From contig NZ_ABOX02000003.1 of assembly GCF_000172555.1 (NCBI RefSeq), positions 124,001 to 188,000 on the forward strand: a DNA stretch of 64,000 nt, written 5' to 3'. The stretch comes from Pedosphaera parvula Ellin514. Its GTDB lineage: Bacteria; Verrucomicrobiota; Verrucomicrobiia; Limisphaerales; Pedosphaeraceae. Below are positions 22,170 through 24,620 of this stretch, piece after piece; the first letter of the stretch is position 1; every line of letters begins with the position of its first letter. The notes beneath the pieces are model-generated. The model was not told the DNA's origin. It searched no databases and saw only the letters and a list, made by a program, of their open reading frames with translations. A program made the position numbers and the translations under genes.

Positions 22170-22976
22170 TTATAGAGGCCGGGAGGGCTCGTTCCATGAG
22201 GGAACGCCCTGTTGCGCCCAGCTGTTTTTACTTACTCCAAAGCGCAGATCAAATTCGGCATCGACTGGTTTTTTTTGGGTAATGAGCCAGTCTCCGGTCA
22301 TCAGCAAACTGGGGAGTTCCTTGCCGGGCAGGATGACGTACCGCTGCAAGATGGCCTCATCCACGGGAGCGGGTTCGAAGTAAGATTGCAGTTGTGAGAG
22401 CGCGGTTGGGAACTGGCCGTTATGGGATTCGATGTATTTGTCCAAGGCAGGTCGCAACATTTCAGCAAATCGCTTTTCGCCAGCCATGCGCAAGGTGCTG
22501 AGAGCGCGGCGAAATTCCTTATCCTCGTCAAGATTGCGATCTTTTACGGCGGCGAGCCAGTCTTCCTCGTTGAGCAATTGAAATTCTGGAATCCCAACCT
22601 CGGGTGTTTGATTTACTCTCTGTTTAACGAGCCCGACCTTCGACGACCAGGATTTTAAGGCTATTTCGGTGGCGCTGCTGGAAGCGGTATTTGTGGCGGC
22701 ATTTAAACGGGTTACTTCACTCCGCAATTTTGGCAACTCAGCGGTGTTTTGGCTGAGGCGCTTGTTTTCATCGCGAAGCGCGGCGAGTTGGCGTTGGGCG
22801 GTGTCGCGGTCGCGGGTGACCTGGTTGATTTGATCTGAAAGTGTGGCTTGTTGTTGTTGAAACGTCTGGACTTGGGCACGGAGGGTGGAGGTTTGATGAG
22901 CTTTGTAGACTCCGATGCCAAAGGCGGGGATAAGCGCGACTATAATGGCGGTTTTTTGGCGCGTGGTCATAGCCAT
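22170..22976 (-). CDS. Membrane-anchored coiled-coil protein, orphan paralogue of the sigma-fusion tail
   Basis: 268 residues. A single N-terminal membrane segment (IIVALIPAFGIGVY) is followed by a coiled coil (QTFQQQQATLSDQINQV through LPKLRSEVTRLNAA) and a C-terminal domain with GIPEFQLLNEEDWLAAVKDRNL and PVDEAILQRYVILPG. It matches, nearly block for block, residues of about 222 onward in the sigma fusion encoded 9 bp upstream, but lacks the sigma domains. The two are surely co-transcribed and arose by duplication. Function unknown; the topology suggests an extracytoplasmic C-terminus. Confidence 0.75.
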   Translation of the reverse strand: MAMTTRQKTAIIVALIPAFGIGVYKAHQTSTLRAQVQTFQQQQATLSDQINQVTRDRDTAQRQLAALRDENKRLSQNTAELPKLRSEVTRLNAATNTASSSATEIALKSWSSKVGLVKQRVNQTPEVGIPEFQLLNEEDWLAAVKDRNLDEDKEFRRALSTLRMAGEKRFAEMLRPALDKYIESHNGQFPTALSQLQSYFEPAPVDEAILQRYVILPGKELPSLLMTGDWLITQKKPVDAEFDLRFGVSKNSWAQQGVPSWNEPSRPL

Positions 22977-22985
22977 CGTTTTGGA

Positions 22986-24620
22986 TTATTTTGCGGCGGA
23001 CGCCTGGGCTTCCTTGACTTTAATCATTCGTTGGAGGGCGGCTTGTTGTTCGGGGGTAGTGGCGTAGGGCATCAGGTCGGCGGCTTCGGTTGGTTCGAGG
23101 CTATTGTGGGAGGCGGCATAGGCTTTCATCACTGGCTTGAGAGCATTGACATCTTTTCCGATGGTATCGTTCCAGGCTTGATTTCCGGCGCTGCCATAAC
23201 CGTTCGGGCCTATGCCGAATCGTTGATCGTATTCGGCGTCCACAGGTGCTTTTTGGCTGATAACCTTATCTCCGCCCATGCCCAAACTGGAGATTTCTTC
23301 GGCGGGCAGAATGGCAAAACGCTGCAAGATGGCTTCATCCAGAGGTGATTCAAAGTATGGCTGTAATTGAGAGAGGTCGCTCGGAAATTGGCCGTTGTTG
23401 GCTTTCATGTATTTGCTCAAGGCCGGCTGCATCATTGAAGCGACCTTGCTCTCGGCATTGTTGCGAAGGTAGCTAAAGGCGCGGCGATAATCTTTTTCGG
23501 TGCTCAGATTGCGGCCCTTCACTGCTCCGAGCCAATCTTCGTCGCTGAGTAATTGGAACTCGGGAATGCCTGCCTCAGGGTTTTGTTTCAGCCTTTCCTT
23601 GAGCTGCTCGACTCGCGCCAACCAGGATTTTGCGGCGGATTCGGCGGGGCTGCCCGTAGAGGGATTTGCGGCTGCGTTTAGGCGGGTGACTGTGCTGCGC
23701 AGTTTCGGCAACTCAGCGGCGTTCTGGCTGAGGCGTTTGTTGTCGTCGCGGAGGGCGGCCAATTGGCGCAAGGCGTCTTCGCGGTCGCGGATGAGTTGAT
23801 TGATTTTTTCCGCGAGCGGGGCTTGTTGTTGCTGGAGGGCCTGGACCTGGGTTTGGAGAGCGGAAGCTTGTTTAGCTTGGTAGAGTCCCGTGCCGACGGC
23901 GGCGATGAGCGTGGCGGCAAGGAGAGTTTTTTGGAGTGTGGTCATAGCAATCGTTTTGGTGACTCCGATGAGAGTTGCGGTGCTGCTGAGGGCGGCGGTG
24001 GAAATGGTGGCAGCGAGGCCGATGGGGGCAGCGGTGACGGCTTGGGCGGTGAGCGCAGTGGCGAGTGCGCCGGCTGAAAGAGTGACGCCGCGATTTTTAA
24101 GGAGTGAATGGAGTTTCTCCAAGGCGCGATTCACTCGCATGCGGGCGGCGTCCTCGTTGGTGCCGATGGCTGCGCCAACGGTGCGGAAGTCGTGTTGCGC
24201 GAAGAAGCGGAGCATGATGGCGGTGCGATCCCCTTCCCCGAGCTGGTTGATGGCTTCGTCGAGGATGGGCGCAACCTGGGCGAGGTTGGCGTCGGAGTGG
24301 TCGTGCAACGCATTCATTTGGACGGCTTCGTTTTCACGCAATTGACGGCGGCGTTCGCCCCGGAGGAAGGTGGACGCAACGTAGCAGGTATGCCGATGCA
24401 ACCAACCGCCGAGCATGACATCCTTGGAAAGCGTCGGAGCAATGCGGGCGAGGTCAACAAAAACGGTCTGCGCGATATCCTGGGCCAGGTGGGCATCGCG
24501 ATTGACCAACCGAAAGGCGACCGAATAGACGAGGTCGACATAGCGCGTGACCAGTTCCCGGAAGGCGGTTTCGGAGCCGTTCCTGACGTAATCGGCGAGG
24601 AGTTGTTGGGTGTCGGTCAT
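22986..24620 (-). CDS. ECF-type RNA polymerase sigma factor fused to membrane segments and a coiled-coil domain
   Basis: 544 residues from ATG 24620 (MTDTQQLL), the usual ECF start; the longer frame to 24665 lacks family sequence. Residues 1-90 are sigma region 2 (YVDLVYSVAFRLVNRDAHLAQDIAQTVF), and about 115-175 region 4 (DRTAIMLRFFAQHDFRTVGAAIG, with the helix-turn-helix). Then come a hydrophobic Ala-rich stretch (182-220), a membrane segment (229-247), a coiled coil (250-317) and a C-terminal domain. The fused tail would tether the sigma factor to the membrane and might replace a separate anti-sigma factor; that is inference. The tail is duplicated in the next gene. Confidence 0.85.
   Translation of the reverse strand: MTDTQQLLADYVRNGSETAFRELVTRYVDLVYSVAFRLVNRDAHLAQDIAQTVFVDLARIAPTLSKDVMLGGWLHRHTCYVASTFLRGERRRQLRENEAVQMNALHDHSDANLAQVAPILDEAINQLGEGDRTAIMLRFFAQHDFRTVGAAIGTNEDAARMRVNRALEKLHSLLKNRGVTLSAGALATALTAQAVTAAPIGLAATISTAALSSTATLIGVTKTIAMTTLQKTLLAATLIAAVGTGLYQAKQASALQTQVQALQQQQAPLAEKINQLIRDREDALRQLAALRDDNKRLSQNAAELPKLRSTVTRLNAAANPSTGSPAESAAKSWLARVEQLKERLKQNPEAGIPEFQLLSDEDWLGAVKGRNLSTEKDYRRAFSYLRNNAESKVASMMQPALSKYMKANNGQFPSDLSQLQPYFESPLDEAILQRFAILPAEEISSLGMGGDKVISQKAPVDAEYDQRFGIGPNGYGSAGNQAWNDTIGKDVNALKPVMKAYAASHNSLEPTEAADLMPYATTPEQQAALQRMIKVKEAQASAAK

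Follow-up and report, generated by a model that had tools for sequence, protein, structure and literature searches.

A candidate two-subunit sigma-factor receptor encoded by a tandem gene pair in Pedosphaera parvula Ellin514

Results

Organization of the gene pair

We analyzed a 64,000-nucleotide stretch of the Pedosphaera parvula Ellin514 genome (contig NZ_ABOX02000003.1, positions 124,001 to 188,000; hereafter the window), focusing on two adjoining genes: a fusion of an extracytoplasmic function (ECF) sigma factor to a long C-terminal extension, and a partner encoding a copy of that extension free of the sigma domain. All features of the pair lie on the minus strand of the window. The fusion gene (22986..24620, stop codon included) encodes 544 aa from an ATG start (MTDTQQ; a longer alternative start is possible at a TTG, 24665), and is composed, in order, of the ECF sigma domain, a hydrophobic linker, a hydrophobic segment, a coiled coil, a head that we call domain A, and a C-terminal helical hairpin. 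The partner (22170..22976, stop codon included) encodes 268 aa comprising a hydrophobic segment, a coiled coil and domain A. An earlier note, made from the DNA letters, had placed both reading frames here with 9 nt between stop and start; we confirmed this layout, and found that the gap (22977..22985) leaves the partner in the same frame as the fusion, with both genes in register across the fusion's TAA stop.

The partner aligned to residues 224–485 of the fusion with 59% identity over 263 aa (E 1e-101), and its start coincides with that of the extension's own hydrophobic segment. The duplication of the extension claimed in the earlier note is therefore borne out in substance but not in extent, as the copy is incomplete: the last ~60 residues of the fusion, which form the helical hairpin, are missing from the partner. 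Similarity of the DNA upstream of the partner's ATG is short, with 8 of the last 12 bases matching and 10 of the last 20.

The sigma domain, containing regions 2 and 4, occupies residues 1–180 (24081..24620). Region 2 was matched by PF04542 at 30.6 bits (cut-off 24), region 4 by PF08281 at 24.7 bits, slightly below its cut-off of 25.7, and the overall ECF profile TIGR02937 scored 57.1 bits (cut-off 42.9). In the AlphaFold2 (AF2) model of the fusion, the predicted local distance difference test score (pLDDT) of this domain was mostly >90, and comparison with ECF sigma structures matched SigW region 2 (Z 14.3, root-mean-square deviation (rmsd) 2.6 over 94 residues). By its region 2 and 4 profiles and its model, the window fusion is an ECF sigma factor, with predicted polymerase binding. 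In the partner, Pfam and NCBIfam searches detected no sigma region, in agreement with the earlier note.

Predicted membrane segments of the extension

Behind the sigma domain we located a 44-residue, nearly uncharged hydrophobic stretch (residues 178–221; 23958..24089), using hydropathy and the column averages of alignment A5 (36 of 40 fusions, four free proteins and the window fusion; 37 fusion rows). This stretch contains a nearly invariant Pro199, and is bordered by conserved K/R at 176–177 (R177 at 92%) and by K222 (92%). A further lysine, K231, conserved at 93%, precedes the hydrophobic segment of the duplicated part (residues 232–247; 23880..23927), likewise defined by hydropathy and A5. 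In the partner, the N-terminal MAMTTRQKT is the equivalent of the fusion's short loop and is followed by a hydrophobic segment (residues 9–27; 22896..22952; Kyte–Doolittle (KD) mean 1.51); partners open in this way, with a short basic stretch and then a hydrophobic segment.

The simplest reading is that residues 178–221 form a two-helix membrane hairpin, followed by a short cytoplasmic loop and a putative third membrane helix (residues 232–247) leading outside. Forty-four nearly uncharged residues with basic ends fit an even number of membrane passes before the shared segment, and since the partner begins with the loop and helix, both heads would be placed on the same outer side. The earlier note had proposed a membrane segment for the extension: a hydrophobic segment is indeed present in the duplicated part, but the fusion has the additional 44-residue stretch in front of it. 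Membrane insertion is suggested here by hydropathy and charge pattern, and the hydrophobic stretches could instead be packing helices of a soluble extension, given that they are Ala/Thr-rich and moderate in hydropathy (KD19 1.42–1.53), and that AF2 confidence was low at residues 197–250 (pLDDT <50). However, the 44 columns remain nearly free of charge in 37 rows with basic residues at their borders, and the partners share the basic opening and hydrophobic segment; we consequently regard a soluble extension as improbable.

We also considered whether the partner is an anti-sigma factor binding the sigma domain itself, since the order of sigma gene and membrane protein gene is that of classical sigma/anti-sigma operons. 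Against this, no anti-sigma family appeared among the Pfam matches listed for the partner (25 of 30, E up to 1) or among its 21 NCBIfam matches, only about 8 residues would remain in the cytoplasm if the hydrophobic segment spans the membrane, and the sigma gene bears the same extension itself. We judge an anti-sigma function to be very unlikely.

An internal translation start within the fusion, suggested by an invariant Met at the head of the extension in A5, was considered and set aside: by eye, no Shine–Dalgarno-like sequence precedes it in the window, and the Met is shifted in other sensor classes of the P. parvula genome (MAWTK.K).

Coiled coil and head domain

The stalk of the fusion (residues 251–317; 23670..23870) showed a period of 3.46, unmatched in strength by any of 2000 shuffles (residues 251–319), and is a long helix in the model. 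The partner's stalk (residues 28–96; 22689..22895) had the same period of 3.46, with 2 of 2000 shuffles as strong. The coiled coil of the earlier note is supported by both periodicity and the long predicted helix.

Domain A spans residues 325–478 of the fusion (23187..23648; profile A1, pLDDT mostly over 90) and residues 100–268 of the partner (22173..22679; assigned from the AF2 model). As modeled from the partner (pLDDT 92.6, predicted template modeling score (pTM) 0.86), the head consists of helices, the one of them measured spanning 33 residues, followed by a four-stranded sheet, in a weakly pilin-like arrangement. The C-terminal helical hairpin, present only in the fusion (residues 481–543; 22992..23180), holds a second, degenerate copy of an NGxxP..QLxPY motif.

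For domain A, Pfam searches (29 members) yielded only chance, single-member matches, as did Pfam and NCBIfam searches with domain D, a second head domain found in related fusions, and sequence searches of the PDB with both domains, where matches were single-member or chance. HHalign identified domains A and D as relatives (probability 97.5, E 7e-12). With the head alone, Foldseek gave no match with E under 0.001; VIA-align over Foldseek's 235 top chains placed type IV pilins in all of the top 5 entries, all of them weak (PilA1 6t8s at Z 4.4, rmsd 2.7 and 84 aligned residues, followed by Z 4.3, 3.6, 2.6 and 2.4). Against pseudopilin profiles, domain D reached HHalign probabilities of 44–68 (34 sequences) and 51 (16 sequences), with 0.1–0.5 for reversed profiles, and domain A reached 2–5. 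The prepilin family N_methyl was not among the Pfam matches listed (25 of 30), and the partner N-terminus (MAMTTRQKTAIIVALIPAFG) does not contain the cleavage motif. We treat a pilin ancestry of the heads as a weak lead.

Census of two-gene loci

We searched 320 genomes of the order Limisphaerales with profile A1 (built from 29 of 31 domain A regions) and profile A4 for domain D (from 18 of 19), and detected domain A in at least 67 (E up to 1e-8) and domain D in at least 102; both counts are lower bounds, as at most 12 candidates per genome were scored in the A1 search and at most 13 in the D search. The domain A census covered ORFs (open reading frames) of ≥70 aa in 111 sequence pieces (the window and loci L037–L146), with three very short A1 matches left out. 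Domain A was scored in 117 ORFs, 88 of which also have a sigma domain. Among 82 sigma-A fusions with ≥600 nt downstream, 16 have a sigma-free partner immediately behind them, with an A head in five cases (window, L052, L079, L080 and L090) and a D head in eleven, to which L077 would add a frame-broken D partner behind a sigma-A fusion (a 17th partner, and twelfth D). The 29 sigma-free A ORFs include 16 that immediately follow a sigma ORF, one that follows a D-bearing ORF truncated at the contig end, and three that look like frame-broken fusions. In all 6 complete operons of a sigma-D fusion and a free A protein, the end of the sigma gene and the start of the partner share 1 or 4 nt (for L091, the overlap is 4 nt with the second ATG and 46 nt with the first).

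The domain D census comprised 50 loci: 30 supplied by the search itself, and 20 taken in list order after excluding short frames, one previously covered locus and two matches close to contig ends. It yielded 42 sigma-D ORFs (three further ORFs score better for A), two with too little sequence downstream. Partners were found for 13 of the remaining 40: nine with A or D heads by profile, namely five A, which are also in the A census, and four D or A/D (L280, L296, L300 and L307); and four with other heads, recognized by eye from a hydrophobic start and an LLxLRxE stalk motif (L288, L301, L305 and L314). Subtracting the five found through domain A leaves a rate of 8/35. We had held that every sigma-D fusion is paired, as observed in 7/7 cases, and dropped this after the D-based count, since those regions had been chosen because of domain A and the sample was biased. 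Two further sites (G006:C794:25164-26232 and G279:C9:12754-13961) each showed two adjoining domain D matches on the same strand, known from coordinates only, with a long frame of 498 aa at each and short frames of 316 and 259 aa, respectively; they are probably further sigma-D and free-D pairs. The corrected sigma-D count and the additional D+D and D+other pairs pull in opposite directions, and leave our confidence unchanged.

The genome of P. parvula itself contains two more fusions, with an unrelated head E, each followed by a free transmembrane (TM)/coiled-coil protein, with recognizably related heads in one of the two pairs. Among 58 genomes searched with the free E protein, 4 gave matches (E up to 1e-6), and at 4/4 loci a sigma-E fusion lies directly upstream. 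With the window pair, 3 of the 37 distinct sigma ORFs (≥300 aa) in the regions of this genome that we examined are paired. A search with the sigma-E head gave three matches, corresponding to the two known paired fusions and a broken sigma-E gene with no partner seen (L299); as it missed 3 of 5 known sigma-E fusions (L232, L245 and L246), it says little on unpaired E fusions.

Two other views of the partner were considered and set aside. A single gene split in sequencing is unlikely, given that many genomes show the layout and that the genes of D+A pairs overlap in different frames. Replacement of the C-terminal hairpin by the partner is not a rule either: a tail of <40 aa was observed in 14/16 fusions with an A or D partner versus 23/66 without, but the fusions of A+D pairs are interrelated, and the fusions of the window and L080 keep the hairpin.

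Independent origins of the partner

We examined the origin of the free proteins in two trees: a domain A tree of 112 rows, which excludes five D-like or partial rows and rows with <90 residues of the domain, and a 41-row tree including the stalk, which holds all 17 rows of the sigma-A fusions paired with A, their free A partners and the free A partners of sigma-D fusions, plus 24 of the 95 others, hand-picked. In both trees, the free A protein of each of the five A+A loci (5/5) is the sister of its own sigma-A neighbor, with supports of 100/97, 98/97, 97/93, 100/97 and 100/100 in the 41-row tree. A single clade of the five free partners, a constraint named after the first tree had been inspected, was rejected by the approximately unbiased (AU) test (p-AU 7.3e-5, log-likelihood difference 262). 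The free A proteins of sigma-D operons group in one clade (100/100 in the 41-row tree), next to the sigma-A fusions whose partner is D. The sister relation in each locus, together with rejection of a single origin, indicates that the two-gene form evolved several times: at least five times by tandem duplication for domain A, with separate origins in the A/D and E systems.

The partner could also be a by-product, a tandem-duplication copy kept temporarily without a function of its own. Consistent with this, copy and sigma gene share a reading frame in 4 of the 5 A+A loci (gaps of 9, 9, 39 and 15; chance of at least 4/5 = 0.045), as expected of an internal duplication split by a stop codon, and whole sigma fusions also adjoin each other. 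On the other side, the 262 aligned codons of the window pair differ at 73, 52 and 118 sites by codon position, giving nonsynonymous and synonymous divergences (dN and dS) of 0.27 and 1.11 and a dN/dS of about 0.25 in one pairwise comparison, which indicates purifying selection on the two genes taken together; in addition, the A/D pairs form one clade that extends across several families, and 4 genomes contain E pairs. We consider a by-product unlikely.

Related fusions and neighboring genes

The P. parvula genome (G000) contains 66 TIGR02937 matches over the cut-off (80 in all), and its long fusions have varied heads, among them TIGR03435/DUF3738 (L224), a weak GspD N0 (L229) and a weak DUF4878 (L037:16957-18363). 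About 40 kb from the window pair, two further sigma-A fusions with a common orientation are separated by 1.25 kb (L037:2320-7016; C3:188.3-193.0 kb of the genome) and have no sigma-free A or D partners. Elsewhere, one fusion has the same sigma/TM/coiled-coil front end with HEAT repeats in place of domain A (L071:9038-10870, relative). At L058:9564-11023, a sigma ORF lacking a long extension shares 4 nt with the gene of a free TM/coiled-coil protein whose head is of another type; the N terminus of this sigma ORF looks frame-shifted, and the locus may be a broken fusion. A few related fusions were found in Chthoniobacteraceae, Opitutae or Opitutus records (L161, L184 and L197).

Six of the 37 distinct sigma ORFs of ≥300 aa examined in the P. 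parvula genome (L214, L218, L221, L223, L224 and L233) have a prepilin-type gene (FTLIELLVVIAII-like) next to them downstream on the same strand, at gaps of −89 to +165 nt. The genome has 115 PF07963 matches, and a rough binomial estimate for this adjacency, assuming 6,000 genes and n = 38, is 8e-5. A short sigma-free domain A protein is also followed, 25 nt later on the same strand, by a prepilin-type gene (L078:3351-4641).

Discussion

We propose that the window contains an operon for a membrane-anchored, two-subunit sigma-factor receptor, in which the two proteins pair, a signal drives sigma release and the partner tunes the response; we put the probability of this reading at roughly 55%. 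The same layout arose several times in related bacteria, and the two proteins therefore probably work as a pair. The reading builds on gene layout, homology, purifying selection, independent origins, close spacing or overlap of the genes, coiled-coil periodicity and the head fold, as observed above. The earlier note had called the partner an orphan, which is wrong in light of the recurrence of partner genes behind sigma-A, sigma-D and sigma-E fusions. Its suggestion of a self-tethered sigma factor with a free partner fares better: recurrence, overlaps and independent origins favor a functional pair, while the membrane tether is a prediction from hydropathy and charge.

From these data we infer membrane topology, pairing, signal, proteolysis and partner effect as follows. 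The fusion would hold its ECF sigma domain in the cytoplasm, anchored by the membrane hairpin and third helix, with the coiled-coil stalk and pilin-like head A outside the cytoplasm; the partner, made by tandem duplication of the extension, would have the anchor, stalk and head without sigma. Fusion and partner may pair by parallel coiled coils to give one receptor with a sigma-bearing and a sigma-free subunit. The heads would then read a signal and the sigma domain would be freed, most likely through successive cuts by a Prc-type and then an RseP-type protease, as in IutY, with the sigma-free subunit setting the threshold or the ligand. Over the cut-off, the P. parvula genome has one RseP and three Prc homologues, and cleavage of the fusion is predicted by analogy. 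Many operons combine heads of different types (A with D, D with other heads), so that such a receptor could respond either to two signals or to a single signal at the interface.

More broadly, and more tentatively, Verrucomicrobiota may possess a class of two-subunit sigma receptors with pilin-derived A/D heads, in which duplication would have led to a heterodimer at least five times for A and separately in A/D and E, including mixed heads. Several sigma fusions of the P. parvula genome are directly followed by prepilin genes, and some of these receptors may accordingly monitor how pseudopilin-type surface or secretion machinery is assembled. If the heterodimers are true, they represent a further design of transmembrane transcription control, with sigma on one subunit only. 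The repeated, independent gain of sigma-free partners amounts to a natural experiment through which the partner's role can be tested, and the fusions are numerous, as the 37 sigma ORFs in the examined regions of one genome illustrate.

Several observations weigh against our reading, in addition to the moderate hydropathy and low model confidence of the hydrophobic segments. No free A or D partner was found for 66 of the 82 sigma-A fusions, nor was a partner visible for 27 of the 40 sigma-D fusions, which means that the partner is dispensable for basic function. Conversely, 9 of the 29 sigma-free A ORFs have no same-strand sigma gene within 3 kb upstream (2.2 kb in one), showing that the free form can live alone; seven of the nine constitute one clade (support 97). 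Members of this clade (L085, L088, L089, L056, L084, L086 and L087) are predicted to be membrane-anchored, and their neighbors vary by genome. No other row groups with the window pair in either tree, and the evidence for selection there hence comes from a single pairwise comparison. Gene conversion between neighbors could mimic the independent A+A origins; the dS of about 1.1 argues against a recent event at the window locus.

The unaccompanied clade fits another explanation, in which the sigma-free copy is a competitor that binds the same signal or partners and dampens the switch without a dedicated heterodimer. The partner has the head and stalk of the fusion with sigma missing, as a competitor would. 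However, a competitor does not require the tight operon layout with its start/stop overlaps, nor does it require partners whose head is unlike that of the sigma protein. We find this explanation doubtful.

Classical ECF sigma/membrane anti-sigma operons, such as RpoE-RseA and SigW-RsiW, consist of two genes, with sigma first and the membrane protein second. The window differs from these in that sigma itself bears the putative membrane extension, and the second gene is a copy of that extension without a recognized anti-sigma domain. Type IV pilins and type II secretion pseudopilins have a membrane helix, a long helix and a helix plus four-strand head, a plan that our proteins may share. The resemblance in structure and profile is weak (Z 4.4; HHalign probability up to 68 for D and up to 5 for A), and the window heads differ in having no prepilin cleavage motif. 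Regulatory C-terminal domains fused to sigma are also known from ECF41, ECF42 and ECF56, where they are soluble.

In those three groups the fused C-terminal domain regulates the sigma factor, and the portions of the sources consulted mention no free copy of the extension (PMC3426412, PMC7730460, PMC8999054, PMC8103513). The actinobacterial groups ECF48, ECF52 and ECF53 (e.g., SCO4117) have a long C-terminal extension with membrane helices, for which release by proteolysis has been proposed (PMC8999054, PMC5826349). As far as the excerpts describe them, they contain a zinc-finger anti-sigma domain, and ECF52 also a carbohydrate-binding module, neither of which is among the Pfam matches of the window fusion; its 16 Pfam families (E up to 1) include no FecR-like or zinc-finger anti-sigma domain. 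IutY of Pseudomonas putida (ECF243) is a sigma factor fused to a FecR-like membrane anti-sigma factor and cut by Prc, then RseP (PMC9249621, PMC8999054). The IutY chain runs from a cytoplasmic ECF sigma domain through a membrane segment to a C-terminal domain outside the cytoplasm, a plan that we predict for the fusion as well; it has a single span and a FecR-like domain, and the sections available mention no sigma-free partner. In contrast, the window has a longer hydrophobic region, a coiled coil, an unrelated head and a second gene. In the extracts consulted, none of the top-ranked matches of the open-access literature described an ECF extension copied without its sigma domain, and a group name for fusions of this type may exist. 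Judged from these partial sources, IutY and ECF52 are the nearest known designs, both as single-gene cases.

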